DNA of 36,892 nt. Source: Succinivibrio dextrinosolvens DSM 3072 (GTDB lineage Bacteria; Pseudomonadota; Gammaproteobacteria; Enterobacterales; Succinivibrionaceae). Shown in pieces: positions 8,820-36,571 of this stretch. The position numbers and the translations under genes are program-made. Every line of letters begins with the position of its first letter. The first letter of the stretch is position 1. Below the pieces are notes generated by a model, which saw only the letters and a program-made list of their open reading frames with translations, did no database searches and had not been told where the DNA came from. The stretch lies in the NCBI RefSeq assembly GCF_900167015.1, contig NZ_FUXX01000025.1:1-36892 (forward strand). Reading direction: 5' to 3'.

Positions 8820-8949
8820 AAATAATGAAGCGTAAATGTTGATTATCTTGTTCCTTGGTATTGTAGCCTGCTTTATTGGTATTTAATGTTGGCAATAAGC
8901 CATACTATGTAATCGTATCCAGGTAATCCCTTGATCAGGCAGCAGCACA

Positions 8950-13293: not shown

Positions 13294-13308
13294 ATCATCG
13301 TATGATAG

Positions 13309-13326
13309 GAATATTCTGAAATATTC
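13309..13326 (+). terminator. Weak hairpin after the SIR2 gene
   Basis: GAATATT-CTGA-AATATTC is a perfect 7-bp stem with a 4-base loop 16 bp after the stop codon, followed by an AT-rich tract (TTTATATTT). It is a possible weak intrinsic terminator; the stem is AT-rich. Confidence 0.3.
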
Positions 13327-13453
13327 TTTATATTTAAAACTAGAGAATGAAGTTATTTTTTGTACTTTTATATGTCTGAGCTAAGATAAAAAAAAGATGA
13401 GCGCATTTTTTTTTCTATAAATCGTTAAATAGCGTTCAATAAGGTTTATTCTC

Positions 13454-14314: not shown

Positions 14315-14392
14315 ATAAAAAAAACTATTTGGTTAATTTGTATTTAATATTTATTTGTGTTTTTGGTGTATATAAATTTTTTATAGAATATT

Positions 14393-15442: not shown

Positions 15443-17103
15443 CAACTATGACTGAGACTAATAATAAACAGAAAAAGTTACAGATGAGTTTTGACCCCCA
15501 GACAATTGAGCATTTGGGGGTCAAGATGTATTCTCAATTGCCTAATGCAATTGCGGAGTTAATCGCTAATAGTTATGATGCTGAGTCTCCAGAAGTTCAT
15601 ATTATTCTTACTGATAATGAAAAGGGTAAGAGTATTACAGTTTCTGATAAAGGAATTGGGATGTCTTTTGCTGAGATAAATGATAATTTCTTGAGAATTG
15701 GTCGTAAAAGGCGAGAATCTGATAATGGTTTAAGTCCTAATGGACTTAGGAAAGTAACAGGACGTAAAGGATTAGGTAAATTAGCATTCTTTGGTATAGG
15801 TGACTCGATACGAATAATTACTAAAAAGAATGGTTATTGTGTTAACTTTACTTTGAATTGGAATGATATTATTCATTCCAAAACGCCAAATTATGAACCT
15901 CAATATACAATAGACGACTGCGCTCCTCAAGAGCATGGAACAACCATAGTATTAACTAACCTTAAGCGTAAAACTGCATTTGATGCAGAAGGATTAGCAT
16001 GCAGTCTTGCCAGTCTTTTTGATTTCTTTGATGATGCGTTCAAAGCAGATATAAAACTAAACGATAATGCACCAATATCAATAGATAAGACTCTAAGATA
16101 TAGAAATATTGATTCACAATTTACTTGGTCTGTACCTGGTTTCATTGAGAATAGAGAACACTTTTTTTATAAAAAGAAAATTTCAGGAGAGCTATTAGCA
16201 ACCGAAAAACCATTGAAGCCTGGTTTAAGAGGAATAACCTTATATGCTCATGGTCGTATGGTGAATGCTCCTGAGTTTTTTGGTGTAGGTGAATCAAGCC
16301 ATTTCTATTCTTATCTAACAGGTTGGCTTGATGTCGATTTTATAGATGAGCAAGAAGAAGATATAATTTCAACAGATCGTCAGTCGTTAAGTTGGGATTT
16401 GCCTATAACTTCTGAACTTAGATATAATTTGAAACAATTATTGTCATCTGTTGAACGTAATTGGCGAGATAAAAGAAAAACAGATCGACAGCGCAATCTC
16501 GCTGAGAAAACAAAAATTGACGTTGAAAAATGGTATCCAACATTAACGAGTGACATAAAACAAGGGGTTGAAAAAATTGTTGACTCTGTTGTTGAAAGTT
16601 CAGAATTTGATAGTGACAAGCAAAAAGAGGTTGTTGAAGTATTGCATTCTCCTATTCCTGAATACGCACAATATCATTGGCGCCATTTACACCAAATAGT
16701 GAAAGGTGCTTCTTATTTATATTATAAAAATGCTGATTTTTACTGGGCTGTTTATGAGGCAATAAAGCGTTTTCAAGCAATTGTTCAGGAAAAATCTAAT
16801 AGTAATCAAGATGGGCAACGTCTTATGTTAGATGTCTTCGGAAGTAATGGCTGCTTATCGGTGTCTTCTAATTATAAGAAAAAGAATGGAGCAGATTTTT
16901 CTGAATCAACAAAAAAGAATATAGAAGAAGGTCAAAAGTTCATGTCTGCTGGTATGATGAGTGGTGTGCGAAATCCTATCGCTCATGAAGAAGTTGCAGA
17001 GTTACAGAATAGCGGCTTATTTACTGAGAATGATTGTTTAGATATGCTTAGTTTATTGTCACACTTGTGCAGACGATTAGATGATGCAATAAAGAAAAAA
17101 TGA
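15439..17103 (+). CDS. GHKL (MORC/MutL-type) ATPase with C-terminal HEPN-like (TIGR02391-type) domain
   Basis: The N-terminal GHKL ATPase shows the N-box NAIAELIANSYDAES (36-50), DKGIGMSF (70-77) and GRKGLGKLAFFGIGD (108-122), the three ATP-binding motifs shared by Hsp90, MutL and MORC. A second transducer-like region includes DIISTDRQSLSWD. The last about 150 residues resemble TIGR02391 (Ymh-type) proteins, with FYWAVYEAIKRFQ, DGQRLMLDVFG, and then GVRNPIAHEE, whose R511-x4-H516 is the HEPN ribonuclease motif. Family knowledge: MORC/MutL-like ATPases are found in restriction-modification loci, and HEPN RxxxxH proteins are often RNA-cleaving effectors. The ATG overlaps the methyltransferase stop, so the two are co-expressed. 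An ATP-gated nuclease answering to loss or absence of methylation is my inference. No membrane segment is seen. Confidence 0.88.
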   Translation: MTTMTETNNKQKKLQMSFDPQTIEHLGVKMYSQLPNAIAELIANSYDAESPEVHIILTDNEKGKSITVSDKGIGMSFAEINDNFLRIGRKRRESDNGLSPNGLRKVTGRKGLGKLAFFGIGDSIRIITKKNGYCVNFTLNWNDIIHSKTPNYEPQYTIDDCAPQEHGTTIVLTNLKRKTAFDAEGLACSLASLFDFFDDAFKADIKLNDNAPISIDKTLRYRNIDSQFTWSVPGFIENREHFFYKKKISGELLATEKPLKPGLRGITLYAHGRMVNAPEFFGVGESSHFYSYLTGWLDVDFIDEQEEDIISTDRQSLSWDLPITSELRYNLKQLLSSVERNWRDKRKTDRQRNLAEKTKIDVEKWYPTLTSDIKQGVEKIVDSVVESSEFDSDKQKEVVEVLHSPIPEYAQYHWRHLHQIVKGASYLYYKNADFYWAVYEAIKRFQAIVQEKSNSNQDGQRLMLDVFGSNGCLSVSSNYKKKNGADFSESTKKNIEEGQKFMSAGMMSGVRNPIAHEEVAELQNSGLFTENDCLDMLSLLSHLCRRLDDAIKKK

Positions 17104-17190
17104 TTATGTTTAGTAATATGTAACAGACATTGATCATTAAAAATTATAATTTTTCCTTTTCTCCTCTCAGGAAAGGCGTTTTTTAAAAAT

Positions 17191-17830
17191 TTATCCTAAG
17201 TACGTTCGATGGTAAAGTCCTATCGTGTAGTACTGGTACCTTTTGTCTCCAAGTGCTGAAAAGACTGCTGCTAGAGATGATCTCATATTTAAGAGCTTAA
17301 CTATTCCTGAATCAGGACATATGTAAAGGCATATGTTGCTGTTGGAGATGTACTGGTACAGTCTCATCAGTGTTGGTCTCTCTTGTTGTTCCTTATGATC
17401 AGGAGAAGGAATAGACAGCTTCTCTTCATCCATGCGTTTCCTTAAGAGATATTCTGTTGCAGTATAAATCAGCATCGCAAGGGAGAATATCCACATCAAT
17501 GCGGAAATGCGGTGAGGTGTTTTCAGTTACAGAGAGCAAACCATAATCTTTCTGTCATTAAAGCATTTCCAGTTGTGTTCAACAACACTCTGTCTTTTGT
17601 AAATGCCTAATAAATCCTTTTTAGTCCATTTACGCTCGACATCATTGGTACAGACTACATAATAAGAACCTTCCTGAACAGCCTGTTCCAGTTTATTTTC
17701 GGAAATCTCAATCTTTTTGCAGTAACGGCTACGGCTATAACTTCTCTTGCTGCATTCTTATTTGGACGACCTTTTCCTTTAAAGCCAAGAATGTCTTCAT
17801 AGTTTATGTCGCTCACGCTACAGAATTTCT
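17191..17830 (-). pseudogene. IS1634-type (DDE) transposase C-terminal relic
   Basis: The minus strand reads EQAVQEGSYYVVCTNDVERKW, then DLLGIYKRQSVVEHNWKCF, then TPHRISALMWIFSLAMLIYTATEYLLRKRM. This is the order seen at the C-terminus of IS1634/IS4-supergroup transposases (a Y..Q..VE block followed by the P.RI.AL membrane-like helix). A TAA after VCSL (near 17525) and at least one frame change upstream of EQAVQ break it. N-terminal catalytic parts are missing. Confidence 0.75.
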
Positions 17831-17904
17831 GTTTGTTTTATTACTATCTAACAAAGCAAAGCCTCATTTATAATATTCTTTACTCAATTATGTACAGAAA
17901 AAAA

Positions 17905-18049
17905 ATGGAGCTCAGACCTACCTAACGATAACATCATATCTCAGTACCGCCAAGAAGCATGGCTTAAATGCATTTGAAGCATTATCTCTCGCTTTCAAAG
18001 GCGAAACTGAGAAAGTTTTAATTTAGTGTAGGTCCTGAATAGTTACAAA
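17905..18049 (+). pseudogene. IS66-like transposase C-terminus with element end
   Basis: The plus frame reads TYLTITSYLSTAKKHGLNAFEALSLAF and then a stop at about 18022, the style of IS66 TnpC C-termini. Eleven bases later TCCTGAATAGTTACAAA (18033-18049) matches 15 of 17 bases of the 27-bp repeats at 3156 and 4992, and is taken as the right end of this element (tip ...GTTAC). Confidence 0.5.
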
Positions 18050-18165
18050 GAGTCATTAAAAAAGCTAATGACTCTGATTTAAGAATCCTAATGAAAAATT
18101 GGATATCAAACAGATATCGATGAAATTATATAAAAGCAGAACCTAATTTAGAAATTCTCTCGAAA
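18050..18165. other. Short gap before the AAA/PD-(D/E)XK gene
   Basis: It contains an imperfect inverted repeat, CTAATTT...AAATTAG (18145-18171), overlapping the 3' end of the minus-strand gene. It is a possible weak terminator without a strong T-run. Confidence 0.25.
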
Positions 18166-19788
18166 TTAGTTTTCAACTTTCTTGTACAAGGTAATCTGAC
18201 GTTTGTCCTTATCGCCATTAAAAACGCACGCGATCTGGATTAACTCTCTGTCTCCAAGATTTTCAAAACCATAGCGTTTTTCAATAATCTGATGCTCCGC
18301 ATCCTCAAGCTTTTTCTGTTCTTCACTATTTATATCCGTGTATTTCAGTTCAAGTACAACTCTGCGCTTTGGGAAGTTTACAAGAATATCACTTCTGCCT
18401 CTGCTGTTATGCTGTTCGACTCGAACATCATGATTCTTGCCAATCAGATAGACCTGCAGCAGTGCTCTTAGAACAGACTCATTATCAACAGGATATTTAT
18501 CATAAGATAGGGCAGCTAATACTTCATTGAAAAGCGAGATAATATCTTCAACAGAGCCTTGTTCAAGAACATAATTTTTACCGGTGGAATATGGAGAAAT
18601 ATTCTTCTGAAAGACTTTTAAACTTAAAAGTCTGAATAGAGCAGATTTAACTTCTAAATTTGCCGCACCAAGAATCACGTTATCATTTGGATCAAGGTCT
18701 GATTTTAAAGTTAAGTATCCGGTCTGACACATCAGAACATTTTCATTAATATCAATCAGAGAAGTTGGGTTCGCAAAATCGTTATAAGGAATTTCAATCT
18801 CTGAGGTCAGAAGATTCTCTATATTCAGATTGTGTGATTCCATATAGTTCATAAGAATAGATGGAAGTCCGCCAACTTCGTACCAGTAATCTCCGAAATA
18901 TACTTCTTTATCGGAAACAATACTATGAAGAAAATTATTGACAGAATAGGTAGAAAATACCTTGTTCCGATATTTTCTATCAAAGCAGTAACTATCATAA
19001 TGCGCTGCCATTCTATCGATGAATTCTTCGCAATCTGCATCTGTTACCTTATCGGTTGATTTATTCTTCTCGTAAGATACGCCGAGTCTTAGGTAATCAA
19101 TATAGAATTTTTTTATTTCATCTCTAGTGAAACCTATCATGTTAGAAAAGGCGTATTCATAGCTTAAATCCATAATATCTGAGCCAACAGAAAAGATAGA
19201 AACATCTTTGAGGCGAGTTACACCAGTAACGGCCATGAATTTAATCTGCTTTTTGCCTTTAATAGCGCCATAGAAATCTCTGATACAGATTCTGAACTTC
19301 TCATAAAGTTCTGGATTGTTAATATTGGCTGTTAGCTGACGATCATATTCATCAATTAGCAGAACCAGCTGCTCACCATCATTCATAGCATCAAAAAGAT
19401 TTGATATGTAAACATTTGGTTCTTTATCATCAAGAACATCTTGTATTTTTTGAGCTCTGGCGAATTTATAGATAGATAAACATAGCTGTCTTTTAAATTC
19501 AGATAAATCTGTTGCAGAGTATTCAAGAAAACTTAAATGAAGAACGGGATACTTCATTTGATCCCAATTGTCATAAATCCATGTTCCCTTGAAATAAGGA
19601 TCAACTCCTTTTTCAAAAAGAGTTCCGATGGTGTTTAGAGTCAGAGACTTACCGAAACGGCGAGGACGTGAAAAGAAAACTCTTTTATAATTTCTTGTAA
19701 GATTATAGATATATTCGGTCTTATCTACATAGATATAATCACTATCTAAAAAATCTTCAATGTTTTCTGACTGAGCAATATTTTTCAT
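18166..19788 (-). CDS. AAA-ATPase-like protein with C-terminal PD-(D/E)XK nuclease domain
   Basis: A 540-residue protein of the AAA-ATPase_like plus PDDEXK_9 family, common in gut Bacteroidetes and Succinivibrionaceae. The N-terminus has FLDSDYIYVDKTEYIYNL and the family's altered P-loop SRPRRFGKSLTLNT (about 40-53). Walker B is LVLLIDEYDRQL (about 141-152), followed by FMAVTGVTRLKDVSIFS. The C-terminal nuclease-like core is GRSDILVNFPKRRVVLELKYTD with Asp467 and E480-x-K482. The usual length is 520-580, so it is complete. The role is unknown; the family is large and often strain-variable, and mobile or defence functions have been suggested. The ATG has AGG about 11 bases upstream. Transcribed against all its neighbours and flanked by IS relics, it appears to be a single-gene cargo. 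Confidence 0.92.
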   Translation of the reverse strand: MKNIAQSENIEDFLDSDYIYVDKTEYIYNLTRNYKRVFFSRPRRFGKSLTLNTIGTLFEKGVDPYFKGTWIYDNWDQMKYPVLHLSFLEYSATDLSEFKRQLCLSIYKFARAQKIQDVLDDKEPNVYISNLFDAMNDGEQLVLLIDEYDRQLTANINNPELYEKFRICIRDFYGAIKGKKQIKFMAVTGVTRLKDVSIFSVGSDIMDLSYEYAFSNMIGFTRDEIKKFYIDYLRLGVSYEKNKSTDKVTDADCEEFIDRMAAHYDSYCFDRKYRNKVFSTYSVNNFLHSIVSDKEVYFGDYWYEVGGLPSILMNYMESHNLNIENLLTSEIEIPYNDFANPTSLIDINENVLMCQTGYLTLKSDLDPNDNVILGAANLEVKSALFRLLSLKVFQKNISPYSTGKNYVLEQGSVEDIISLFNEVLAALSYDKYPVDNESVLRALLQVYLIGKNHDVRVEQHNSRGRSDILVNFPKRRVVLELKYTDINSEEQKKLEDAEHQIIEKRYGFENLGDRELIQIACVFNGDKDKRQITLYKKVEN

Positions 19789-19905
19789 TTACACGACCTA
19801 TCAACTGATTTCAATATGATAATTATATCATTGATGACTAAACAATCAGATTAGCTCTTACTCATTTTATGAGTTGATGCGACTAATAGTAAAGCCAATA
19901 TTCCT

Positions 19906-19935
19906 CTAATTTAGGATTTCTAAATCCTAAATTAG
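19906..19935. repeat. Perfect 12-bp inverted repeat upstream of the AAA/PD-(D/E)XK gene
   Basis: CTAATTTAGGAT and ATCCTAAATTAG flank a 6-base loop, 118 bp upstream of the minus-strand start at 19788. There is no T-run, so an operator or cruciform is more likely than a terminator. The rest of 19789-20099 holds no gene that I can support. Confidence 0.5.
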
Positions 19936-20099
19936 AAAATAGAAATGAAAGTAATTACCCTTTATCAGCCTATACAAAGTGGATCTGATAGTTTGCTTAT
20001 TTTGTTAAGGATAGGAGTTATTCCTTAATTAACTTTTCCTGCCAACATAAAGGATTTGCCATAATAAGGAGAGTAGAGAAAATAAAATCCTTGTCCCCC

Positions 20100-21020
20100 T
20101 GAATTCACTTGTTCATTCAAAAGTGCAGTTCAATGCTTATAGATGTCTATAGAAACGTAATATCTAGTCAATCAAAAAAATCATAACCACAGACTTCAAG
20201 TTCAAAACATTAGTTACTGATGCCTTTAGTGGTTATGAACAACTGATGTAATAACATCCTGGGGCAAAACTGCAGCACTGTCTAGTTCATTTAAGACGAT
20301 AACTGCTACAGGCATTTGATTTTGAAAATTACTGTAAGCAGATGGATGTGCTTGATGAAAAGGAATGCAGAGAGTTTGTCATGAAGGATATAAAAGTCGC
20401 TTCTTACATGTATCTGATTTACTCTGCCTTTAATGCAATCAATAAAATTTATGCGCTTGAGTATAGCGTTAATTACAGCAGAGATAACTATCTGAAGCAA
20501 ACTGCGATAGTCAGAACAAAATGTCGAGAACTTCTGGAAAATGCAGACATAGTCATGGATTAGATGATTAAGCGACACATGAGCCCGAATAAGACTAACA
20601 CCGGACTGGTAGGAAAAAAGGAGAAGCTTATTCACGAGTCTGCGTCTATTGGTATCAGCAACGACCTTTTATACGACAGTTTTTAAATGATCCGGCGGTT
20701 CCGCCAGATACGAATATCGTGTAACTGGCTATAAGACCGATTACGGTATTCAGAAAAAATTCTAACTGGAATGCAACAATATCTTACATGGAAGATCTAT
20801 GTATGCTGTACAGTGTTTATATGACAGCTAAGAAAAACGGCATCAGCGATGTTTATGTCTGGCTTTGAACTTATTGTAGAGATTTATATGAATTCTGTCT
20901 GGAAAAGCAGAGGACAGCTTGTATAAAGGAAGGCAAGTCCTTCACAAAGAAAATCCTTGTCTGGGATATGGTCTCATTATCAACAGGTTTGATTTCAGTA
21001 AATATCAGCTAATGAAAAGA
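20100..21020 (+). pseudogene. IS66-family transposase relic (middle to C-terminus)
   Basis: Readable IS66 TnpC segments in shifting frames: HSKV near 20120; VTDAFSGYEQL, a stop, then HPGAKLQHCLVHLRR (20200-20300); MDVLDEKECREFVMKDIKV through LENADIVMD (20342-20563, open); RPFIRQFLNDPAVPPDTNIV (about 20665-20725); then TISYMEDLCMLYSVYMTAKKNGISDVYVWL and a C-terminal tail ending QLMKR at about 21018. Several stops and shifts make it dead. It is co-linear with the left-edge copy and with 8950-9955. Confidence 0.85.
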
Positions 21021-21032
21021 TAAACATATCAA

Positions 21033-21054
21033 TTCAACAAACGCGTTTGTTGAA
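21033..21054. promoter_or_regulatory. Perfect 22-bp palindrome with ACGCGT core (putative operator)
   Basis: CAACAAACGCGTTTGTTG plus TT/AA flanks is a perfect palindrome. The AACGCGTT core with a central CpG is like LacI/GalR-family operators. A second, looser copy with the same AACGCGTT core is centred 44 bp downstream. It lies 165 bp before the ABC-3C operon, just after the IS66 relic. Confidence 0.5.
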
Positions 21055-21077
21055 AATCCCGAAAAACTAAACCGAGT

Positions 21078-21097
21078 CCAGGAAACGCGTTCGTTGG
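21078..21097. promoter_or_regulatory. Second AACGCGTT-centred site
   Basis: An 8-bp perfect core, AACGCGTT (21084-21091), with matching CCA/TGG outer bases and mismatched bases between. Its centre is 44 bp (about four helical turns) from the first palindrome, so the two lie on one DNA face. Confidence 0.4.
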
Positions 21098-21119
21098 TAT
21101 GGAGTATCTGTTCACTTCT

Positions 21120-21168
21120 GTTTAACTTTAAAGTTAAACAAAACAGTAATTGGAACTTACGATATAAT
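21120..21168 (+). promoter_or_regulatory. Palindrome and -10 box upstream of the ABC-3C operon
   Basis: GTTTAACTTTAAAGTTAAAC (21120-21139) is a perfect 20-bp palindrome. TATAAT lies at 21163-21168, 51 bp before the ATG at 21219, and no good -35 is present at the proper spacing. The palindrome ends 23 bp before the -10, where an activator or repressor could contact polymerase. Controlled expression of the operon is inferred. Confidence 0.45.
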
Positions 21169-21218
21169 TGATATAAAAATGAAATAGAGAATAAATGTAT
21201 AGGTGTTGAAATATTTTT

Positions 21219-22442
21219 ATGTCTCAAACTCAAGTAAAGGCATTCGGGAATAACAAAACTCCAACCAAAACGATACTACACACGGCTATAGCGTCATGGA
21301 ACGGATTTATTTATCAGGGAATGTGCGCTTTATATGTAGCATTGGATATTCTTTATCACGGGGATGATAGCCATAAAGAATGGATGCTGGGGCTTGAAAG
21401 TTATGAGGATTTTGCAATATTGGACAATACTGGTCAAATTCAGTCTTTTCACCAGTGCAAGTGCTACAGAAATTCAAAGGACTTCACAGATGAGTTTGAG
21501 AAGATGGAAAGTAAGAGGAAATACTGGAATAGTGAAGGAAAGTGCGCGAATGATGCTCATCTATATTTTCATTGTAATTTAAACTTGAATTATTCCAACG
21601 GTGTAAGTGCATATAAATATCACAATGGAATGTTTTTAGCTTCGCCGAAAGACATTTATCTTTTGGTAAATGAGATGGTTCAATCAATTATGAACGCACA
21701 GAATATACCTGGGTCTCATGAGGCGAAAACAGAGCGTTTGATATCTTTGATTTGTACTCACGTGTCAAGTTTACATCAGTTGTTAATTGAATCTCCTGCA
21801 GAAACTAATAGTTTTAATAGTGTGTGTGCTCATCCTGTTAAATTACAAAAACTGATGGATCTAATTACAAATACAACGGTCCCATTGAATAAAAAAGAAA
21901 AAGCGTTTTGTTATCTCTACTATTTTGAACTATATCTTAACGAATGTATGACATTTACTCAGCATGTTAACGATGGTAGGTTAAATAGTTTTATAGATGT
22001 GTTGCAGACAATGGATTCGGATAACATTTTGAACTTAATACAGCGCATAAATCCTGACGTAAATGTAAATGACAGTAATGCAGAACGAGAACTTGAAGCA
22101 AGCGCTAGACCTAATAATTTTTATCAGGTTATGACAGACACTTTGGAGGAAATCAATTTACAAAAGATGATGTGGCAGCGTAAAGGTGTGCTTTATTCTC
22201 CAACAACTCTTGGTCAGGATATGGGAACAGCCCGACAGTGTGCAAAAATAGTTAGCAATGATAATATCTCGTCTCTACTTTGGGACTGTAACTGGCTTGT
22301 AGGTAATGTGAAAGAGTCTGTGGAAGATGTGCGAGAGGAATCAAATAAGATAACGACAATGTCCATTGACTATAGCAAGTTTACAAAGCCAGAAAAACTT
22401 GGATTGATTACTATTAAAGACTTTAACGATGGAAAGTATTAA
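21219..22442 (+). CDS. ABC-3C system effector: N-terminal PD-(D/E)XK-type nuclease candidate with C-terminal ABC-3C domain
   Basis: A 407-residue first gene of a three-gene operon. The N-terminus has SWNGFIYQGMCALYVALDIL (26-45), then LGLESYEDFAIL with Glu60 and Asp64, and FHQCKCY with Gln79-x-Lys81. This GFxYQ...ED...QxK order is that of Cap4/DUF4297-like restriction-endonuclease folds. The remaining about 320 residues are helical and match the idea of the C-terminal adaptor domain of ABC three-component systems, which couples an effector to a middle component and an ABC ATPase. In that scheme the ATPase senses invasion and releases the effector's DNase activity. The gene overlaps the next by 14 bp. 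The family is recognised from domain order and operon structure; nuclease activity is inferred. Confidence 0.75.
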   Translation: MSQTQVKAFGNNKTPTKTILHTAIASWNGFIYQGMCALYVALDILYHGDDSHKEWMLGLESYEDFAILDNTGQIQSFHQCKCYRNSKDFTDEFEKMESKRKYWNSEGKCANDAHLYFHCNLNLNYSNGVSAYKYHNGMFLASPKDIYLLVNEMVQSIMNAQNIPGSHEAKTERLISLICTHVSSLHQLLIESPAETNSFNSVCAHPVKLQKLMDLITNTTVPLNKKEKAFCYLYYFELYLNECMTFTQHVNDGRLNSFIDVLQTMDSDNILNLIQRINPDVNVNDSNAERELEASARPNNFYQVMTDTLEEINLQKMMWQRKGVLYSPTTLGQDMGTARQCAKIVSNDNISSLLWDCNWLVGNVKESVEDVREESNKITTMSIDYSKFTKPEKLGLITIKDFNDGKY

Positions 22443-23085
22443 AAAAATTATTTTTACAGAGTTCCTTAACTACGATTATGAAATCATCCTTAACCAGGGA
22501 ACTATATTTGTTTTTAAACACAAGGTATTTGATGATTTTTGGGCTGTGTGTTATGAAAAATTTGATCTTAGTCTACAACATGATATGTATGAAACAGTGA
22601 TTAAGGTCATTGCTGATCTTTACCCATGTGCAAAGAAAAACACCTCATTATTAGTTTTATCAGACTTAAATAAGGAGTACCTCTCCACTGACGAGATAGT
22701 TGAGTTGGAGAAAGATCCTTTTTTCTTTAAGAAATATGTACTGCCATATAGTGAAGAACTGAGCCAAAAATTGCAGTATTTGTTAATAAGTCATAATGCA
22801 AAATCTATATCCGATCTGATAATGTTGCAGGAATCTTTTAATGCACTTATCGAAGAGATTGACTATGGTATGTATCATTTGCTTTATTGCATTGCTCATA
22901 AGTTGCCTTTTATTCCTATTAAGGCTGAACAAAAGACTATGCAACAAAGAGATCTGTTTTTATCAGACAGTGATGAAATATCGGCATTGAATGAAGTATT
23001 GTCAATAAATGGTAATGTTCAGTCAGTATATGAGCAGCTGAAATTAAAGATAGAGCAAGAGTGTTATGAGCAACATAAAGATTAA
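22429..23085 (+). CDS. ABC-3C system middle component
   Basis: A 218-residue protein starting MESIKKIIFTEFLNYDYEII, overlapping the effector's 3' end by 14 bp and the ATPase's 5' end by 20 bp. Such overlaps mean tight translational coupling. No catalytic motif is seen. An N-terminal alpha/beta part with aromatic residues (FKHKVFDDFWAVCYEKFDL) is followed by helices (EELSQKLQYLLISHNAKSISDLI, EALIEEIDYGMYHLLYC-like) and a charged tail. Position and size fit the small middle component that bridges effector and ATPase in ABC three-component systems. It is assigned mainly from context. Confidence 0.65.
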   Translation: MESIKKIIFTEFLNYDYEIILNQGTIFVFKHKVFDDFWAVCYEKFDLSLQHDMYETVIKVIADLYPCAKKNTSLLVLSDLNKEYLSTDEIVELEKDPFFFKKYVLPYSEELSQKLQYLLISHNAKSISDLIMLQESFNALIEEIDYGMYHLLYCIAHKLPFIPIKAEQKTMQQRDLFLSDSDEISALNEVLSINGNVQSVYEQLKLKIEQECYEQHKD

Positions 23086-25311
23086 TTGGATATACTTGCA
23101 GAACTTTAAAGGATTCATTCACTTGAATCTTCAGTTTGACTGCAGTCATTCTGTTATCCTAGGAGGACCTAACGGATATGGTAAGACGACGGTTTTTGAT
23201 GCTCTAGAAATTCTGTTTACAGGCAAGATTCGAAGAATGGATAGTTATGTATCGTTACATAATAACTCCACAAGGATGGATCAAGATGAGCAGAAACCTC
23301 TTGTTTATAGCTCTAAGTCGAACCTAGCCGTTATTGTGAGAGCAGGTATTCAGTCTGGAGATCGGGAAATTATTCTGGAACGTCATGCTGATGTTTACGA
23401 GATGCGAAATCCGGTCGATTTCACTCCTTTTAATCGGCTGTATCTAAGTGAGAACGGTCCTGATGCAATTCATGAGATTTCACCTGATACCTTGCGTAAA
23501 TTTGGTATAGAAGATTTAGCGAAGAATTATGATTTTCTTTACTATCTGAGTCAGGAGGAAACTGTTTCATTCCTTAAAATGAAAGAGTCTGAACGTTCTC
23601 GTCTAGTACAGCAACTATTTGATACATCTCGCTATGAAGATTCGATACAAAGACTTGGTGACGCCATAACTCAGTGTTCAAAACTGTCTTCTGAGCATAT
23701 ACAAAAGAAGAATTCTGTCGATGAAGAAATAAAAAAACTGACTTCTTCAGTAGTAGGAGTACAGAATACTCATAGTCAGTATATCTCTCTTTCTCCTGAT
23801 AAGTCTTTGCTGTGGGATTGTGAGACTCCTAACTTTAGCCATGAGGACTTTAATCTGTGGCTGTCTGATGATGGTGTATAGATGGAATGTTGTATTTCTG
23901 TCAAAACAAGGTTGCTTTTAAACAGAATAATCTGAACAAATTCTTGAGAAGATTGTTGCAAGGAGATTTTATTAAGCAGATAGTCGTGTATTTCCAATAC
24001 AAAGGCTCCACAATTCTGAGTGAATATAAGCAGTATCTGAGGATTAGAACTCTGTTTGAACAACTTCGTTTAGAGAATATCGGAACTTTTACTGTAAATC
24101 TACCTCAAAATCTGATTGCTGATAATGTTATTGACGCTAACGTTTTGAAAGTCTTAGAGGCTGAGCGAGTTAGTCTGATTAGTGTCTATAATGCGACAAC
24201 TGAACTGGAAAATTTAAAGCGTGAGATAGTTCAACGGCGTGAAGAATTGGCAATAATTGTTGCGCATAATCAGGATAAGTTACAAACAGAACATTGTCCG
24301 CTCTGCGGAGCCAGATATGATGACTGTTCAGAGCTAGTTAAGCATATAGAGTCATACGGTACACAACTGTCTTAAAGCCTTGATAACATTACTCATAACC
24401 TTTTGAATCAGTTTGAAAAATACAGACATGAGTTTGTTTTGCAAGTGATAGATCCTTGCGAAGTATTTTATGCCTCAAAAGGAATGAATGATGAATTGGT
24501 GTCATTCTTCGACAGTATTAATATTAATCAGGTATTGAAAGATGCTGAATTAGTAGAGCGCATTTTAGGAAGGCCTATTGTGTATGCTCGACCTACGGAA
24601 GAATTGTTGACAGAATTAGTTAGAGAACTGTCTGCGAAAATAATACCTATTGACGCAAGAGTGAATGTGGGATGGCTTGAACAAATATATAACAGCTATC
24701 TGAAAGATCTTAACTGGACTAGTCTGACTGAAGAGCAAGTTAAAGCTAAACGAGACTATCTGAGAATGATCTGGAACAAGAAGGTATCAGAACTATTGAA
24801 GACAAAACTTGATGCAAGTGCTAGATTACAAGACTGCATTAAGCACTGCAGTCAGCGTTATAATTTGTATAAGAAAACTAAAAAAGCTCTGCAGAGCCAG
24901 CGTGACAAATATATTGATGAAATTATTTCAGACATGAAGATATTATTCTATATTTATTCTGGTCGAATTATGCAGGACTGCCATTATGGTCGAGGCTTAC
25001 TGATTAAACCTAATTTTCCAAAGAAGCGAATACTGTTCGTATCTGGTAGCTATAAGAGCGATGTGGATGCTCTTTACAACATGAGTAGTGGTCAGTTAGT
25101 GTCGCTTTCGATAGCTTTTCTTCTTACTCTGAATAAGTTGTATGCTCGTAGTCCAATGATTGCCATTGATGACCCTGTACAGACTATTGATGATATCAAT
25201 CTATGGGGACTAATTGAGACACTTCGTCACGATTTTAATCAACACTTCTTGTTGCTCTCTACCCATGAACAGGACTACAGTCAATTGCTGAGGGATAAGT
25301 TCCTTAAGTGA
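23066..25311 (+). pseudogene. ABC-3C SMC/RecF-like ABC ATPase, broken by a frameshift and a stop
   Basis: Together the pieces would make about 748 residues. Piece 1 (23066-23881) carries INWIYLQNFKGFIHL and Walker A GGPNGYGKTTVFDALEILF (33-51), plus the Q-loop-like YYLSQEE. Piece 2 (23887-24375) carries a zinc-hook-like CPLCG. Piece 3 (24403-25311) carries the ABC signature NMSSGQLVSLSIAF, Walker B MIAIDDPVQTIDD and the His switch LLLSTHEQ. Pieces 2 and 3 share one frame, separated only by a TAA at 24373-24375. Piece 1 ends in a TAG at 23879, and a -1 shift there joins it smoothly to piece 2 (GV|IDGMLYFCQ). Every catalytic motif survives, so the lesions are recent, or one may be a sequencing error. 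The ATPase should be non-functional while its two operon partners are intact. Confidence 0.88.
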
Positions 25312-27967: not shown

Positions 27968-29023
27968 ATGATTAAATTAGAAAATATACATAAAATCTAT
28001 GAGTTAGATCATGGAAAAACTCTTCACGCCTTAAAAGGTATTGATCTTCAGATCAACAAGGGCGAGATTTTCGGTGTGATTGGTCTTTCTGGAGCTGGCA
28101 AATCTACTCTTATCCGTATCATCAATATGCTTGAGCTTCCTACTGATGGCAAGGTAATCATTGATGGTGAGGATATCACTTCCTATCGCGAAGCAAAATT
28201 AAGAAAAGTCCGTCAGTCAATCGGCATGATTTTCCAGCAGTTCAATCTTTTATCATCAAAGACTGTTTTTGAGAATGTCGCTTTCCCTTTAGAACTTGAT
28301 CAGACTCTATCTAAAGATGAGATTAAAAATAGAGTTCATGAGCTTTTAAAGATGGTTGAGCTTGATGATAAGGCTGATGTATATCCTGCTCAGTTATCCG
28401 GTGGTCAGAAGCAGCGTGTGGGTATTGCCCGTGCTCTTGCAACCAATCCTAAGATTCTTCTGTGTGATGAGGCTACATCAGCTTTAGATCCTAAGACTAC
28501 AAGTTCAATCCTAAAGCTTCTGACAACCTTACGTGACAAGCTGAATCTTACCATTGTGATTATTACCCATCAGCTTGAGGTGATTAAAGAGTGCTGTGAC
28601 CGAGTTGCCGTAATTGACGGTGGTCTTATCAGTGAGATGGGAAATACCATTGATCTCTTTGCAAATCCTCAGAAGGATTTAACCAAACGTCTTGTAAGTG
28701 CTGTAGTAAGAAAGGATCTTAATGATCTGCTTGAATACACTAAGCTTGATGACACTTATTCAGAAGGCTCAAGAGCCTGGTTTGAGCTTCTGTTCCTAGG
28801 TGACAAGGCGGAAGATCCTGTTATCGTTGAGGTTGCAAAAGAGCTTAATGTTAACATCAGTATTCTGGCTGGACAGATTAACCATATTCAGAATAAGCCA
28901 TTAGGCATTCTTATTGTTGCTGTCAAAGGCGATGAAGCACTAATCCAGAAGGCAAAGGAAGAGCTTGAGAAACGGGTATATCACGTACAGCTTTTAGGTT
29001 ATGAGGTAGAGAATAATGAATAG
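27968..29023 (+). CDS. metN: D-methionine ABC transporter ATP-binding protein MetN
   Basis: 351 residues. ATPase of the MetNIQ importer for L- and D-methionine at the inner membrane. Walker A GLSGAGKST (about 38-46), Q-loop QQFNLLSSKT, ABC signature LSGGQKQRVGIARAL, Walker B ILLCDEATSALD and the switch IITHQ are all present. The C-terminal about 100 residues form the NIL/ACT-like regulatory domain (IVEVAKELNVNISILAGQI) that senses methionine. It overlaps metI by 8 bp. Codon use and G+C are clearly higher than in the upstream island, as expected for a resident gene. metQ is not next in line: a DUF4143 gene intervenes. Confidence 0.97.
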   Translation: MIKLENIHKIYELDHGKTLHALKGIDLQINKGEIFGVIGLSGAGKSTLIRIINMLELPTDGKVIIDGEDITSYREAKLRKVRQSIGMIFQQFNLLSSKTVFENVAFPLELDQTLSKDEIKNRVHELLKMVELDDKADVYPAQLSGGQKQRVGIARALATNPKILLCDEATSALDPKTTSSILKLLTTLRDKLNLTIVIITHQLEVIKECCDRVAVIDGGLISEMGNTIDLFANPQKDLTKRLVSAVVRKDLNDLLEYTKLDDTYSEGSRAWFELLFLGDKAEDPVIVEVAKELNVNISILAGQINHIQNKPLGILIVAVKGDEALIQKAKEELEKRVYHVQLLGYEVENNE

Positions 29024-29705
29024 CTTTTTACTTTCTTTAGGTTTATCTACCTATAATGCCAAGATCATTCAGCTGCTTTTTGATGGCTCTGTTGATACCA
29101 TCTACATGGTACTTTTATCTACAGCAGTTTCTATTATTTTCGGTGTTCCTCTTGGAGTTATCCTGCTTGTAACCTCAAAAGGCTATTTCTGGGAGAACCG
29201 TCCATTCTATTCAGTATTGGGAACCGTAGTTAACGCTCTGCGTTCTGTTCCTTTTATTATTCTGATGGTGGCAATTATCCCTATTACCAAGCTGATTGTT
29301 GGAACAAGTATCGGTACAACTGCAGCGATTGTTCCTCTGACCATATCAACTATTCCTTTTTTAGGAAGACTTGTTGAAACTTCACTTAGAACTGTTCCTT
29401 ACGGTCTTATTGAAGCCGCTCAGTCCATGGGAGCAAGTCCATTCAGAATCATAAGAAAGGTTTTACTGCCAGAGGCTCTACCTGAACTGATTCAGAACTT
29501 TACCTTAACTGTAATTGTAATTATCGGCTGTTCTGCTATGGCTGGAACCATTGGCGGCGGTGGTCTTGGTGATATTGCTATCCGCTATGGCTATCAGCGC
29601 TTCCAGCTTCCAATTATGATTATGACTGTAATCATCCTGGTGCTGATGGTTCAGTTAACTCAGTTCATTGGTGATTACCTGACTAAGAAGGTTGATCACA
29701 GATAG
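29016..29705 (+). CDS. metI: D-methionine ABC transporter permease MetI
   Basis: A 229-residue inner-membrane permease with five hydrophobic helices (for example MVLLSTAVSIIFGVPLGVILL, FIILMVAIIPITKLIV). The cytoplasmic EAA loop is EAAQSMGASPFRIIRKVLLPEALPEL (about 134-159), which contacts MetN. The start overlaps the metN stop, so the pair is co-translated. A strong intrinsic terminator follows 30 bp after the stop. Confidence 0.96.
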   Translation: MNSFLLSLGLSTYNAKIIQLLFDGSVDTIYMVLLSTAVSIIFGVPLGVILLVTSKGYFWENRPFYSVLGTVVNALRSVPFIILMVAIIPITKLIVGTSIGTTAAIVPLTISTIPFLGRLVETSLRTVPYGLIEAAQSMGASPFRIIRKVLLPEALPELIQNFTLTVIVIIGCSAMAGTIGGGGLGDIAIRYGYQRFQLPIMIMTVIILVLMVQLTQFIGDYLTKKVDHR

Positions 29706-29780: not shown

Positions 29781-30060
29781 TTGTTTAATATTTTTTCTGA
29801 GAGCAAGTAATCCTCCTTCATTAATGTTTGTCACGATTGTTATATAAGTATCGTGACAATTTAATAATTGTGAGAACATACTTTGCGCTTTGCCGGCAAT
29901 TTCTTTATTAAGTACTTTGCTCTTTATCTAGACAGAAGAACCAAATTTTGTTCATAAAAGGCATAAGTATGCAGTTTTAGAAAGAGTGTCCACTTTTGAA
30001 AAAGAAATGCAATAAAAAGTTTTTTTCATGTCTACTTTTCTTAACTACTACAAAGTATTT
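29781..30060. other. Non-coding spacer with a perfect 10-bp inverted repeat
   Basis: No gene. TTGTCACGAT (29828-29837) and ATCGTGACAA (29850-29859) form a perfect inverted repeat around a 12-base AT-rich spacer. It is an operator-like or element-end-like site about 400 bp from any start codon. Confidence 0.45.
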
Positions 30061-30220
30061 AGAATTTTGTGAAAATTTTGTTTAAAAATATAAGAATTAT
30101 GTGAAAATTAAGTTTAAATGTTTAAGAATTATGTGAAAAAATAAATTTAAAACTTAAGAATTTTGTGAAAAATTAATCTTAATAATTAAGAATTATGTGA
30201 ATATATAATTAAAATTATTC
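30061..30220 (+). repeat. Five tandem repeats with exact 32-bp period
   Basis: AGAATTWTGTGAA starts at 30061, 30093, 30125, 30157 and 30189, every interval exactly 32 bp. The rest of each unit is A/T-rich and also related (consensus continues with A-rich bases and TTTAAA). There are no unique spacers, so it is not a CRISPR. The last unit overlaps the expected -35 region of the promoter at 30221. A 32-bp step is about three helical turns, placing all sites on one DNA face, as for cooperative binding of a regulator or an iteron-type protein. Confidence 0.9.
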
Positions 30221-30226
30221 TATAAT
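30198..30226 (+). promoter_or_regulatory. Putative promoter of the DUF4143 gene inside the repeat array
   Basis: TATAAT at 30221-30226, with TGAATA at 30198-30203 and a 17-bp spacer. The -35 lies within repeat 5, so a protein on the array would control or block initiation. The leader to the ATG at 30264 would be about 30 bases. Confidence 0.5.
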
Positions 30227-30263
30227 ATAAATAGATAATTTATATTTGTTGGTCTTGATTAAA

Positions 30264-31613
30264 ATGTATCGCAAAATAATAGATAAACTTGTAAAGTGGC
30301 ATGAGCAATCTGACAAAAAAGCACTTCTTGTAACTGGTGCTAGGCAGATTGGAAAAACGTACATCATTAGAGAATTTGCCAAAAAATACTACAGTAAGTT
30401 TGTTGAGATCAATTTTCTAACCCAGCATTCTGCTAAAGATATCTTTTCAGGAGATCTTGATTTCAATACTCTTCAGCTGACTCTATCTTCTTATCTGAAA
30501 ACCACTCTTGTAAAAGGAAAGACTCTGATTTTTCTTGATGAAATCCAGGAATGTCCTAATGCCAGAACTGCTATAAAATTTCTTGTTGAAAACGGCTCAT
30601 ATGACATTATCGAATCCGGATCCTTACTAGGTGTTCAGTATAAGAATGTTCCTTCATATCCGGTGGGCTTTGAGCAGGTTCTTCATATGTATCCAATGGA
30701 TTTTGAGGAGTTCTGTATTGCAAATGGAGTATTGCAGGATACCTTTGATTATCTTCATGACTGCTACTCCAATAAAAGAGAAGTATCCTTGGCAATCCAT
30801 CAGAAAATGCTTAATCTGTTTAAGTATTACACTATTGTCGGTGGTATGCCTCTGGTTGTGAAAAGGTTTGTTGAAACAAATGACCTTTATAAAGTAATTG
30901 ATACTCAAAAGGATATTGTCAGTCTATACCGTCAGGATGTTAATAAATATTCTAAGGATGGTCAGGCTAAGATTAAGAATATCTTTGATACGATTCCATC
31001 TCGTCTTGAAGATAAGAATCGCCGATTTACAGTTAATTCCATAAATTCAAATGCCAGATTGCGTGATTATATGGATTCTTTTCTATGGCTTAAGGATGCA
31101 GGTGTAGCTCTCCCTTCATTTAATCTATCTGAGCCTGTAATTCCTTTACAGCTTAATGAAAAGAATAATCTGTTTAAACTGTATTTAAGTGATACCGGGC
31201 TTTTATGTTCAATGTCACTTGAGAATATTCAGTTTGCAATATTAACAGATAATTTAAAGATTAATGCCGGAGGTATTTTTGAGAATGTTTTTGCTCAGAG
31301 TCTTAAATCAAATGGTTTTGAGCTTAGATATTTGAATCGTAAAAATATTGGTGAAGTTGATTTTATCGTCCAGAATTACGATAAGGTTATACCTTTGGAG
31401 ATTAAATCAGGGAATGACTATAAGAAACATTCTGCGTTAAATAATCTTTTAAACAATGAAGCCTGGCATTTAGCTCACGGATATGTATTCTGCAGAGGTA
31501 ATCTTGAGGAAGAGGGGAAGGTTACATATCTTCCATGGTATATGATTATGTTTTTTAAACAGGAAAAGCCTGATTTAAATTCAGTTCCAAAACTTGATCT
31601 GTCTGGATTATAG
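30264..31613 (+). CDS. AAA_14/DUF4143 family ATPase
   Basis: 449 residues. The N-terminal AAA_14 ATPase has ALLVTGARQIGKTYIIREF (Walker A GARQIGKT, 25-32), KTLIFLDEIQECPNARTAIKFL (Walker B) and IIESGSLLG. The C-terminal DUF4143 part ends with NIGEVDFIVQNYDKVIPLEIKSG, a PD-(D/E)XK-like arrangement (D-F...E-I-K). Such proteins are widespread single-gene units of unknown function. The ATG at 30264 (MYRKIIDKLVKW) is chosen as the family start; upstream in-frame TTGs (30246, 30249) would begin in non-family sequence. No strong RBS is seen. It sits between metNI and metQ with its own promoter and a 32-bp repeat array, so it looks like an insertion into a former metNIQ operon. Confidence 0.92.
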   Translation: MYRKIIDKLVKWHEQSDKKALLVTGARQIGKTYIIREFAKKYYSKFVEINFLTQHSAKDIFSGDLDFNTLQLTLSSYLKTTLVKGKTLIFLDEIQECPNARTAIKFLVENGSYDIIESGSLLGVQYKNVPSYPVGFEQVLHMYPMDFEEFCIANGVLQDTFDYLHDCYSNKREVSLAIHQKMLNLFKYYTIVGGMPLVVKRFVETNDLYKVIDTQKDIVSLYRQDVNKYSKDGQAKIKNIFDTIPSRLEDKNRRFTVNSINSNARLRDYMDSFLWLKDAGVALPSFNLSEPVIPLQLNEKNNLFKLYLSDTGLLCSMSLENIQFAILTDNLKINAGGIFENVFAQSLKSNGFELRYLNRKNIGEVDFIVQNYDKVIPLEIKSGNDYKKHSALNNLLNNEAWHLAHGYVFCRGNLEEEGKVTYLPWYMIMFFKQEKPDLNSVPKLDLSGL

Positions 31614-31798: not shown

Positions 31799-32593
31799 AT
31801 GAATAAATTAAATAAATTATTAGGAGCAACCGCTGCATTAGCTTTTGCTGTTTCTTCTTTCTCTGCTAATGCAAATGAGACCGTCAGTGTTGGCGCAACT
31901 CCAGTACCTCATGTAGAGATTTTAGAGGTTGTTAAGCCAATTCTTGCTAAACAGGGCGTTGATTTAAAGATTGTTGAATTCAACGATTACGTTCAGCCAA
32001 ATCTATCTGTTTCTGATGGTCAGCTAGATACCAATTATTTCCAGCACCGTCCATATCTTGAGTCTTTCATCAAGGATAGAGGTTCAGACTTAGTTGAGGT
32101 TGGTGGTGTTCACATTGAGCCTATGGGCTTATATTCTCACAAGATTAAGAAACTTGATGAATTAAAGGAAGGCTCAACTGTTGCTATTCCAAACGATCCA
32201 ACCAACGGTGCACGTGCTCTGCTTCTTTTACAGTCAGCAGGTTTAATTGAGCTTGAAGATCCTTCAAATATCACTGCAACCGTACTTGATATCAAGACAA
32301 ATTCAAAGAATCTTAACTTCAAGGAGCTTGAGGCTGCTCAGTTACCTCGCTCACTAGATGATGTTGATGCAGCAGTAATCAATACCAACTTTGCTATCAG
32401 CGCAAATTTAAATCCTCTAAAGGATTCAATTATCATTGAGAAGTCAGACTCTCCATATGTAAATGTTCTGGTTGCAAACTCCAAGTCAGCTCAGAAGGAA
32501 GGTGTTAAGGCTCTGGTTAAGGCTCTTCAGAGCAAGGAAGTTAAGGACTTCATCGAGAAAAAGTACAACGGTGCTGTTGTAGCTGCTTTCTAA
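31799..32593 (+). CDS. metQ: Methionine-binding protein MetQ (no lipobox seen)
   Basis: A 264-residue substrate-binding protein (NLPA family) that delivers methionine to MetNI. The signal peptide is MNKLNKLLGATAALAFAVSS with likely cleavage after SANA (about residue 25). The mature part begins ETVSVGATPVPHVEILEVV, and family blocks DGQLDTNYFQHRPYLESF, GLYSHKIKKLDEL and PNDPTNGARALLLL are present. Unlike most MetQ proteins there is no cysteine after the signal, so lipid anchoring is not predicted and the protein should be soluble in the periplasm. G+C and codon use match metN. A strong terminator follows. Confidence 0.95.
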   Translation: MNKLNKLLGATAALAFAVSSFSANANETVSVGATPVPHVEILEVVKPILAKQGVDLKIVEFNDYVQPNLSVSDGQLDTNYFQHRPYLESFIKDRGSDLVEVGGVHIEPMGLYSHKIKKLDELKEGSTVAIPNDPTNGARALLLLQSAGLIELEDPSNITATVLDIKTNSKNLNFKELEAAQLPRSLDDVDAAVINTNFAISANLNPLKDSIIIEKSDSPYVNVLVANSKSAQKEGVKALVKALQSKEVKDFIEKKYNGAVVAAF

Positions 32594-34895: not shown

Positions 34896-36092
34896 ATGAA
34901 AATATTCAATATAAGATTTGGAAAGAATTATTTATTTCCAAATGGATTTTTTATTGATTTTTGTACGGATGATGGAGTCAGAAGCAATGCTGGTAAACCA
35001 GAATTCTATATGCCTGCATTCAAAATAATACCTGCTTTATACTCTCAGGTTATCATCGGAGTTGTAGGATTAAATGCCACAGGAAAGACTACAATTCTGG
35101 ATGCTATTAGTCTTATCATGAGTATATTAATAGGTGATCAGAAGTTAAATGAAAGCAATGTAAGAACAAGACTGGATAAGTTTTTCTTATTCGATAGTTC
35201 CTCTACATTGGATTTTTGTGTTGAATTTCAGAATAACTCAAAAGTTTATAGATTAGAATCAACTGTCGAATATACTTCAGATTTATATTCTTATAAGCAG
35301 GAAAAGCTAAGCATAACAACAACTTCACAATATAAAAAGAATAAATATTTTTCAGAAGTTAGAACAAGAGATATTGAGAAAGCAGGTAATCATTATCTGA
35401 AGGATGACGTAAGTATTGTCTCTGCAGTTAATAAATGCAATGAAACATATAGTTCAAATCTTCCTTTTGTTAATTCAAATGTTCCTGCATGGTTGGGAAC
35501 AGCCCCAAATGAATTGGTTAAGTGTTTTGATTCGAGCATCAAGACTATCACTATGTTTAAGAATAGCGTATCTAATGCTTTAGAGGTTTCTGTAACATTT
35601 AACAGAAAGGCCGGAAACAAACGTCATTCGAATGAGTCAACGAATCAGAATAAAAAAATACCAATTGACAGCATACTATCTTCAGGAACTATAAAAGGAA
35701 TAACAATGCTGCCTTCTATTATTGAGGTTCTTAAAAATGGAGGCTATTTCATTGCAGATGAATTAGAGAATCATTTTAATAAAAAAATAATAGAGTTTAT
35801 TCTTGGGTTATTTAACGATAAAAGAACTAATCCTAAAGGGGCCTGTTTAATTTTTTCAACTCATTATCCTGAGCTTTTAGATTTTCTTTCTAGAAAAGAC
35901 AATATCTATATAACTACAAGGAATAATGACGATCTTCAGCTCACAAGATTATCAGACTGCAAAGAAGTTCCTAGAAATGATATTTCAAAGAGCAGGATTA
36001 TTCTGTCAAATATAATAAAAGGAACTGCTCCAAAGAAAATTGATTTGGATAATGCAAAAAGACATATTTCATCTTTAGTTGGTGGTATGTAA
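34896..36092 (+). CDS. AAA ATPase (AAA_15/21 type), first gene of an ATPase-TOPRIM pair
   Basis: 398 residues. Walker A is GVVGLNATGKTTILDAISL (55-73). A variable middle follows, then the ABC-like signature ILSSGTIKGITML, Walker B GGYFIADELENHFN and the switch IFSTHYPELLDFL. This is the architecture of SMC-like ATPases in OLD, AbiL and PARIS-type defence systems. The stop overlaps the start of the next gene (TAATG), so the two are co-translated. In known relatives the ATPase holds the TOPRIM partner and releases it on sensing a phage protein; applying that here is inference. Composition is more AT-rich than uvrC, consistent with a transferred module. Confidence 0.85.
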   Translation: MKIFNIRFGKNYLFPNGFFIDFCTDDGVRSNAGKPEFYMPAFKIIPALYSQVIIGVVGLNATGKTTILDAISLIMSILIGDQKLNESNVRTRLDKFFLFDSSSTLDFCVEFQNNSKVYRLESTVEYTSDLYSYKQEKLSITTTSQYKKNKYFSEVRTRDIEKAGNHYLKDDVSIVSAVNKCNETYSSNLPFVNSNVPAWLGTAPNELVKCFDSSIKTITMFKNSVSNALEVSVTFNRKAGNKRHSNESTNQNKKIPIDSILSSGTIKGITMLPSIIEVLKNGGYFIADELENHFNKKIIEFILGLFNDKRTNPKGACLIFSTHYPELLDFLSRKDNIYITTRNNDDLQLTRLSDCKEVPRNDISKSRIILSNIIKGTAPKKIDLDNAKRHISSLVGGM

Positions 36093-36571
36093 TGACTGTT
36101 TTATCTGAATATTCCTATATGTATATTGTTTGCGAAGGTACTAATGAGGAAGAAGTAATAAACTGGATATTAGAAAATAACTATTTTGTTATTGATTCTC
36201 TTAAGGTTAATACTGACTATTCCAGAGCCAGATCGAAAAAAAGTAGTGAAGAGATGGTTCATGAAATTACACAGTACGACTATGACGGCAAGGTTGCTGT
36301 TTTATATGTTCATGACAGCGCAAAAGAAAAATGGCATGGATTAATAAATAGAGCCTGTAATAATGAACTGCTTAATAGTCATATTGATGTTATTGATATC
36401 ATTACAGCTCCTGAAATAGAGGTTCTATATATTTATTCAAATGATGAGCTACTAAAAAAATGGAACAAAGGTTCTAAAGTCAAACCTTCAATTTTCTGTA
36501 AGCAGTATTTGAAATGTAACGATATAAAAAACAAAGGCAAGTTTTTAGAAAAATTTCCGGTTCTTCAGTAA
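36092..36571 (+). CDS. TOPRIM-like (RloB/AbiLii-like) partner protein, possibly C-terminally short
   Basis: 159 residues starting MTVLSEYSYMYIVCEGTNEEEVI. The strand followed by CEGTNEEEVINWIL (Glu15) is a TOPRIM-type opening, and VAVLYVHDSAKEKW holds the Asp expected at the second motif, although the usual D-x-D is reduced to one Asp. Glu in ITAPEIEVLYIYS and SIFCKQYLK follow. RloB-like proteins are usually near 200 residues and extend further past the IFCKxxLK block, so the end (FLEKFPVLQ, then stop) may be truncated. The ISL3 end lies only 57 bp downstream, making insertion damage a possibility. Together with the ATPase it resembles two-gene ATPase/TOPRIM nuclease defence systems. Confidence 0.65.
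   Translation: MTVLSEYSYMYIVCEGTNEEEVINWILENNYFVIDSLKVNTDYSRARSKKSSEEMVHEITQYDYDGKVAVLYVHDSAKEKWHGLINRACNNELLNSHIDVIDIITAPEIEVLYIYSNDELLKKWNKGSKVKPSIFCKQYLKCNDIKNKGKFLEKFPVLQ

Follow-up and report, generated by a model that had tools for sequence, protein, structure and literature searches.

Arrays of direct repeats phased near whole helical turns lie beside the gene of their binder in plasmid iterons and partition sites, and Orc1/Cdc6 joins an AAA+ module to a winged helix. Of the experimental systems that I came across, RptR is the closest in having direct repeats in the promoter of defence genes: in the accessible text of PMC12255303, the repeats are bound by a protein made from the same promoter. 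This protein is a small dedicated repressor belonging to a defence island, and its site consists of three 9-bp repeats around a 6-bp palindrome (accessible text of PMC12255303). In the locus described here, by comparison, an ATPase-nuclease would itself be the binder, and its asymmetric repeats recur every 32-33 bp. Unlike the proteins of iteron and partition arrays, the protein has no replication or partition domain. It resembles archaeal Orc1/Cdc6 (2v1u, 2qby) and the ATPase 2qen in having an AAA+ fold with a further domain; however, the identity is 12-14%, the TM scores are low, and no replication-origin role is implied.

The gene belongs to a family which is filed as PDC-S01. In the accessible parts of PMC12988326 and PMC13356809, PDC-S01 is described as a widespread, predicted system, and no upstream array is mentioned there. 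The accessible part of PMC12988326 calls it the fourth most common defence across prokaryotes and treats it as unvalidated, validation being pending for most PDCs. A Thermus gene with AAA_14 and DUF4143 appears in the accessible part of PMC4406477 only as an entry in an expression table. No mention of arrays upstream of DUF4143 or PDC-S01 genes was found in the abstract openings of the openly licensed papers listed for this family or in the passages of these three papers.

A 32-bp repeat array upstream of a DUF4143 gene

The window, i.e. the whole stretch of DNA analysed in this study, is 36,892 nt of the forward strand of contig NZ_FUXX01000025.1 (assembly GCF_900167015.1) of Succinivibrio dextrinosolvens DSM 3072. 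As shown in Table 1, a gene with AAA_14 and DUF4143 domains lies between two genes presumed to be metN and metI on its left and a presumed metQ on its right. By direct reading, the motif AGAATTWTGTGAA occurs five times upstream of this gene with a period of exactly 32 bp, and TRF reports the array at 30057-30201 with a period of 32, 4.5 copies and a score of 156. Both bear out the five repeats and the exact period of a sequence-only reading of this DNA. Its further statement that there is no drift holds for the array copy in the window and not beyond it, because the spacings are 32, 33 and 33 in a syntenic relative (L102).

Table 1. Coordinates of the repeats, promoter candidates and genes at the array locus of the window
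Feature	Positions	Strand	Basis
Repeat copy 1, AGAATTTTGTGAA	30061..30073	+	sequence, TRF, genome pattern search
Repeat copy 2, AGAATTATGTGAA	30093..30105	+	sequence, TRF, genome pattern search
Repeat copy 3, AGAATTATGTGAA	30125..30137	+	sequence, TRF, genome pattern search
Repeat copy 4, AGAATTTTGTGAA	30157..30169	+	sequence, TRF, genome pattern search
Repeat copy 5, AGAATTATGTGAA	30189..30201	+	sequence, TRF, genome pattern search; shares bases with the -35 position of the second TATAAT
Two candidate -10 hexamers, TATAAT	30204-30209, 30221-30226	+	read from sequence
AAA_14 + DUF4143 protein, 449 aa, PDC-S01 family (predicted)	30264..31613	+	ORF, Pfam, PADLOC, alignment, model
AAA_14 ATPase domain	30315..30716	+	Pfam match
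DUF4143 domain	30933..31412	+	Pfam match
metN-metI (presumed names), left neighbours	27968..29705	+	ORFs; Pfam BPD_transp_1 for metI
metQ (presumed name; NlpA lipoprotein family), right neighbour	31799..32593	+	Pfam match

The five copies have a mean pairwise identity of 95% over the 13 motif bases and of 57% over the next 17. There are 68 near-identical 12-mer pairs in the 300 bp upstream of the gene, against 12 in the best of 60 dinucleotide shuffles, and the two-copy pattern is unique to this array within the 2.67-Mb genome. The last copy ends 62 bp before ATG 30264. This ATG is likely the start codon, since aligned relatives begin with M-x-R or nearly so; the ORF list also has an upstream TTG start at 30246. 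If a -35 box is placed 17 bp from the second TATAAT, it runs into the end of the last copy, which fits the earlier placement of this copy at the -35 region of a predicted promoter.

Two known kinds of element were rejected as identities of the array. A CRISPR array does not agree with a 13-bp motif and partly similar 19-bp spacers, and no cas domain was found in the 14 of 33 window ORFs scanned. Against a known RNA element, Rfam gave 0 matches at the gathering score between 29600 and 30400.

The protein is predicted to be PDC-S01, a widespread candidate phage defence. The PADLOC PDC-S01 models match its residues 7-443 of 455 (E 6.1e-176), and they also match 10 of 10 other members tested from several subfamilies. 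The AAA ATPase plus PD-(D/E)XK architecture of PDC-S01 is represented by the Pfam matches to AAA_14 and DUF4143. Walker and E-D-ExK residues are conserved over 109 proteins: E379 is found in 109 and K381 in 108, while residue 366 is D in 101 and E in 8. The C-terminus is called PD-(D/E)XK-like here on the basis of this motif and the accessible text of PMC12988326, not of a structure match. The AlphaFold model (pLDDT 84, pTM 0.85) has an AAA part, a helical middle with a hairpin, and a mixed C-terminus; in my reading, the middle part is compatible with a winged helix. The top Foldseek match is the Pyrococcus Walker ATPase 2qen (TMq 0.42), followed by RFC, ORC and Orc1/Cdc6 chains, and a single-sequence PDB search gave no relative at E up to 1. 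The sequence-only reading had called the function of DUF4143 genes unknown. That was right in so far as I found no shown function, but the family had already been filed as PDC-S01 with a predicted role in phage defence.

Defence-like genes are abundant in the window (7524-25311 and 34896-36571). They include AbiH, a SIR2-like protein matching ThsA models, an AbiLi-like ATPase, and a C5 methylase beside a HATPase protein matching restriction-enzyme models. They also include an ABC-3C/Lamassu-like set, whose SMC-like ATPase (23066-25311) is divided between two or more ORFs and so looks broken. At 18166-19788 there is a second family of ATPase-nuclease (AAA-ATPase_like and PDDEXK_9), with no adjoining TRF array.

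Arrays beside DUF4143 genes of the genus and of distant taxa

Do other DUF4143 genes have such arrays? The same genome has nine DUF4143 genes, and seven of them have an upstream TRF array, with units of about 33, 23, 32, 33, 40, 74 and 40 bp. The remaining two (L011 and L013) have no TRF array; inspection by eye shows short, inverted copies of a motif at both. The family is present in 18 of 19 genomes of the genus with up to 43 matches per genome, the 43 being found in G008 (about 3.3 Mb). From the matches listed, 99 distinct genes form the genus sample, with high-scoring ones favoured and all nine genes of the host genome included. In all samples, proteins needed a length of at least 330 aa, and those whose last 250 residues repeated another's were left out. 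Too little upstream DNA removed 3 of the 99 genes of the genus and, outside it, 2 of 119. The controls exclude ORFs within 500 bp of a DUF4143 start, in the genus and likewise in distant taxa.

At least ten near-identical 12-mer pairs in the 300 bp upstream were found for 39 of 96 genus genes and for 0 of 179 control ORFs, and all 60 dinucleotide shuffles were exceeded by 46 of 96 genes and 4 of 179 controls. A first test by TRF at score 80 had given 19 of 46 genus genes and 5 of 197 control ORFs. Four of these five controls start less than 1 kb from an opposite-strand DUF4143 gene and look like DUF4143 arrays viewed from the divergent ORF; this explanation does not extend to the fifth. The array label changes 25 times on the genus tree, against a mean of 31 for shuffled labels, of which 8 in 500 need as few changes; its presence is clustered, yet it changes often. 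Among 32 genes from other genera of the host family, ten pairs or more were found for 18, and 22 beat all shuffles.

The distant sample of 80 loci, found by protein similarity alone, covers Bacillota, Bacteroidota, Actinomycetota, spirochaetes, Fibrobacter, other phyla and archaea, as sorted by record title. At least ten pairs were found for 58 of 85 distant genes and for 16 of 198 control ORFs, these controls being less clean than those of the genus, and 74 of 85 genes beat all shuffles. The archaeal loci L193, L259 and L264 have copies at a 33-bp spacing, but their 8, 2 and 8 pairs fall short of the ten required. Thus, arrays with the same period are widespread upstream of homologues, where the sequence-only reading had proposed to look for them, but each subfamily has its own motif instead of one shared array. 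Many DUF4143 genes have no array. In the genus, 50 of 96 fail to beat all 60 shuffles, as do 11 of the 85 distant ones, and some of these genes carry inverted or scattered motifs instead (by eye).

Some genes without a TRF array (L014, L016, L011 and L053) have, by eye, one or two palindromic or inverted promoter motifs resembling TTCGGCTAAAA, TTTCGCAAA or GCGGATATCCGC. These may represent the same self-recognition in another format. In L045 of G001, a 33-bp array of 3.5 copies (about 4026-4139) lies upstream of an ORF without a DUF4143 match, and a DUF4143 fragment is found about 3.4 kb farther along.

In viral contigs, 26 of 28 loci were examined, of which four duplicate the upstream DNA of another, leaving 22 distinct. 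Ten pairs or more were found in 11 of the 22, with spacings that are mostly 32-33 bp or a multiple of this, a count that stands without a control set. Phage decoys with the exact two-copy pattern were rejected, as 0 such stretches occur in the viral contigs. A relative at E 1e-5 was found in 61 of 72,556 plasmid records. Four of these 61 were examined: L300 has a strong array, L298 has two copies 66 bp apart, L299 has none, and for L297, where the match starts only at residue 30, the tested stretch contains none. The array was rejected as plasmid iterons by this plasmid count, by the lack of a Rep domain, and by its site between met transporter genes; in G001, the met site lies on a single contig of 3,468,545 bases.

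Arrays are found upstream rather than downstream of the gene: 39 versus 4 of 92 in the genus, 17 versus 2 of 29 in the other genera, and 50 versus 9 of 76 in distant genes. From 153 genes with at least three copies, 460 successive spacings were obtained with a finder that is blind to spacings below 20; 171 of them are 33, 117 are 32, and 82 are 23. In total, 288 of the 460 spacings are 32-33. One clade has periods of 32-33 bp and another has 23 bp, with seven and ten copies in 300 bp, respectively. The distance from the last copy to the start codon has a median of 43 bp. TATAAT is 7.4-fold denser just past the last copy (22 in 3241 positions versus 26 in 28,421 elsewhere upstream), in a zone that was picked after viewing earlier data on the distance from array to -10, and an exact TATAAT lies inside this zone in only 21 of 109 genes. 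A fixed distance from array to -10 was sought, and the spacing varies between genes. From these sequence data, the repeats sit at the gene's own predicted promoter.

Could these be chance or slippage repeats without function? AT-rich intergenic DNA readily gives tandem repeats, and the positive control ORFs of the distant sample are in line with this. However, the period, place, orientation and core are common to many phyla, and the motif bases are kept while the spacers vary, so that this origin is barely conceivable.

The array and the gene as a probable unit

The site between metI and metQ was compared among 13 loci of the genus. In seven of them, including that of G002, metQ lies within 600 bp of metI. 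G000 and G016 have the array and the gene between metI and metQ, while G001 and G002 have a three-copy array at this site without the gene, its third copy having diverged. A tblastn search for the protein at the gene-less arrays gave no credible match (best E 0.62). Other insertions precede the gene-less array in G001. I read the gene-less arrays as cases of gene loss; insertion of the gene into a pre-existing array is the alternative. The earlier reading was to be refuted by the array at unrelated loci that lack DUF4143 genes. Two related genomes do have the array without the gene, but at this same locus, so that only half of the objection applies.

In L124 of G001 (2374-3687), a presumed toxin-antitoxin-like pair and a presumed IS630-like transposase lie between metI and metQ. 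They make the metI-metQ spacer a possible hotspot of insertion within the genus.

For six of nine pairs with at least 83% protein identity, the DNA homology comprises the array and the gene only: it starts inside the array or at its outer edge and stops no more than about 10 bp from the stop codon. The six pairs represent four groups, because three of them come from one trio. The remaining three pairs share their flanks too. From these comparisons I infer that the array and the gene are inherited as one unit. The sequence-only reading had suggested a mobile unit; what stands is the co-inheritance in close pairs, because no terminal inverted repeat or target duplication was seen at the unit ends of seven groups, inspected unsystematically and by eye only. 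The array might instead be an attachment or recognition site for movement of the unit, its upstream place being a by-product. The homology limited to array and gene, as well as the array remnants at the metI-metQ site of G001 and G002, would agree with this. Such a role is nevertheless highly unlikely, given the unit ends just described, the few arrays at the 3′ end, and the three pairs with shared flanks.

Motif, protein subfamily and proposed self-recognition

The motif comparison used 109 genes whose arrays have a period of about 32-33 bp: 39 of the genus, 10 of other genera, and 60 distant. Their motifs align in a single orientation on an AAAA-TGT core with variable flanks; the core information is 8.97, against a null maximum of 3.09 and an orientation-randomised maximum of 6.72. 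Similar motifs are found in 2-5% of the pairs below 40% protein identity, 7% at 40-50%, 30% at 50-60%, 62% at 60-80%, and 83% above 80% (of 12 pairs). Between the host family and distant taxa, 119 pairs with at least 50% identity have a mean motif similarity of 0.435 (null maximum 0.359; 0 of 2000 permutations). This test replaced a plain rank correlation over cross-taxon pairs after the outcome of the latter was known, which was 0.126 and inside the null (mean 0.115, maximum 0.185). By eye, units like GGAAAAACGTYGCA are shared by an actinobacterium, a methanogen and relatives in the Lachnospiraceae, and units like TTGGAAAAGCGGACAAA by Bacteroidota, Fibrobacter, Lachnospiraceae and the host genus. 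Judged from these alignments, motif and protein appear to diverge together, subfamily-matched across phyla, which is the expected trace of a protein reading its own array.

Partial correlation did not tell the specificity domain apart (AAA -0.03, wHTH 0.09, wHTH core 0.12, PDDEXK 0.14), each value lying within the largest of 200 permutations. In 52 pairs of paralogues from the same genome, motif similarity is no lower than between genomes.

Exact sites were searched for in four genomes. AAGAATTWTGTGAA matches the met-locus array only in G000 (4), G016 (1) and G002 (2), and two of its three matches in G001 are inside that array. All matches of GTCTTAAAAAATGT are in the L005 array (6) or in the counterpart of that array in G001 (2), and all matches of CCTCATAAAAATGTAA are in the L044 array of G001 (8). 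Altogether, 25 of 26 exact sites of the three motifs are inside arrays, four of them in gene-less ones, and a genome-wide regulon of exact sites was rejected on this ground. The same searches bear on whether another host protein binds the repeats, or whether they are generic AT-rich, UP-like promoter DNA. Many arrays are AT-rich and lie beside promoters, and the array outlives the gene in two genomes. However, the motifs track the DUF4143 subfamily between phyla and not the host, the seven arrays of one genome differ, and exact sites are almost absent elsewhere in the four genomes. This origin of the repeats is therefore quite unlikely.

The subfamily-matched upstream arrays suggest that the protein binds its own promoter. 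I consider it fairly probable, from sequence comparison, that the repeats are a private cis-acting array of the ATPase, which would bind it and control its own promoter. The earlier proposal that the dedicated binder is the ATPase itself is probably correct, as arrays track the protein subfamily across phyla; the cooperative binding and the iteron-like nucleation that it also raised are hypothetical. Copies of the ATPase would sit on the repeats head to tail, all on the same face of the DNA and spaced by about three turns, with the winged-helix-like part of DUF4143 as the probable contact. The bound array beside the promoter would set the expression of the gene, repression being more likely than activation. 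The array and the gene would be inherited and transferred as a single unit, and the motif and the protein would diverge together. The ATPase as binder, the binding part, autoregulation and its sign, and the defence role are all what I infer from these patterns. Against autoregulation, 7 or 10 copies per 300 bp are more than simple autorepression needs. Also against the preferred reading, the gene-less arrays of G001 and G002 persist, many family genes do not beat the shuffles, the distance from array to -10 varies, and paralogues in one genome show no extra motif avoidance.

Alternatively, the array may be a working part that nucleates an assembly of the ATPase-nuclease on DNA for storing or sensing, released or switched on by phage. 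The many copies with a common three-turn phasing, the nearly invariant catalytic residues of the 109 proteins, the predicted-defence status and the other defence-like genes in the window are consistent with it. On the other hand, the data do not separate such an assembly from plain autoregulation, and many family members have no detectable array, so that I regard this role as unlikely. It is equally doubtful that this family, among the commonest predicted defences in bacteria and archaea, is a two-part system of protein and cognate array, in which the array would nucleate a phased ATPase-nuclease assembly next to the promoter, acting as an infection-sensing DNA switch, with a private code for each horizontally moving unit.

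Under the preferred reading, self-recognition of the array by the ATPase, there would be consequences for the whole family. DUF4143/COG1373 ATPases are abundant, and a cognate site that can be read from the sequence would give a concrete ligand to test. The arrays would also help to classify subfamilies and give a clue to how such genes stay silent. The pairs of protein and DNA motif would be a natural set for learning a winged-helix-like specificity code.
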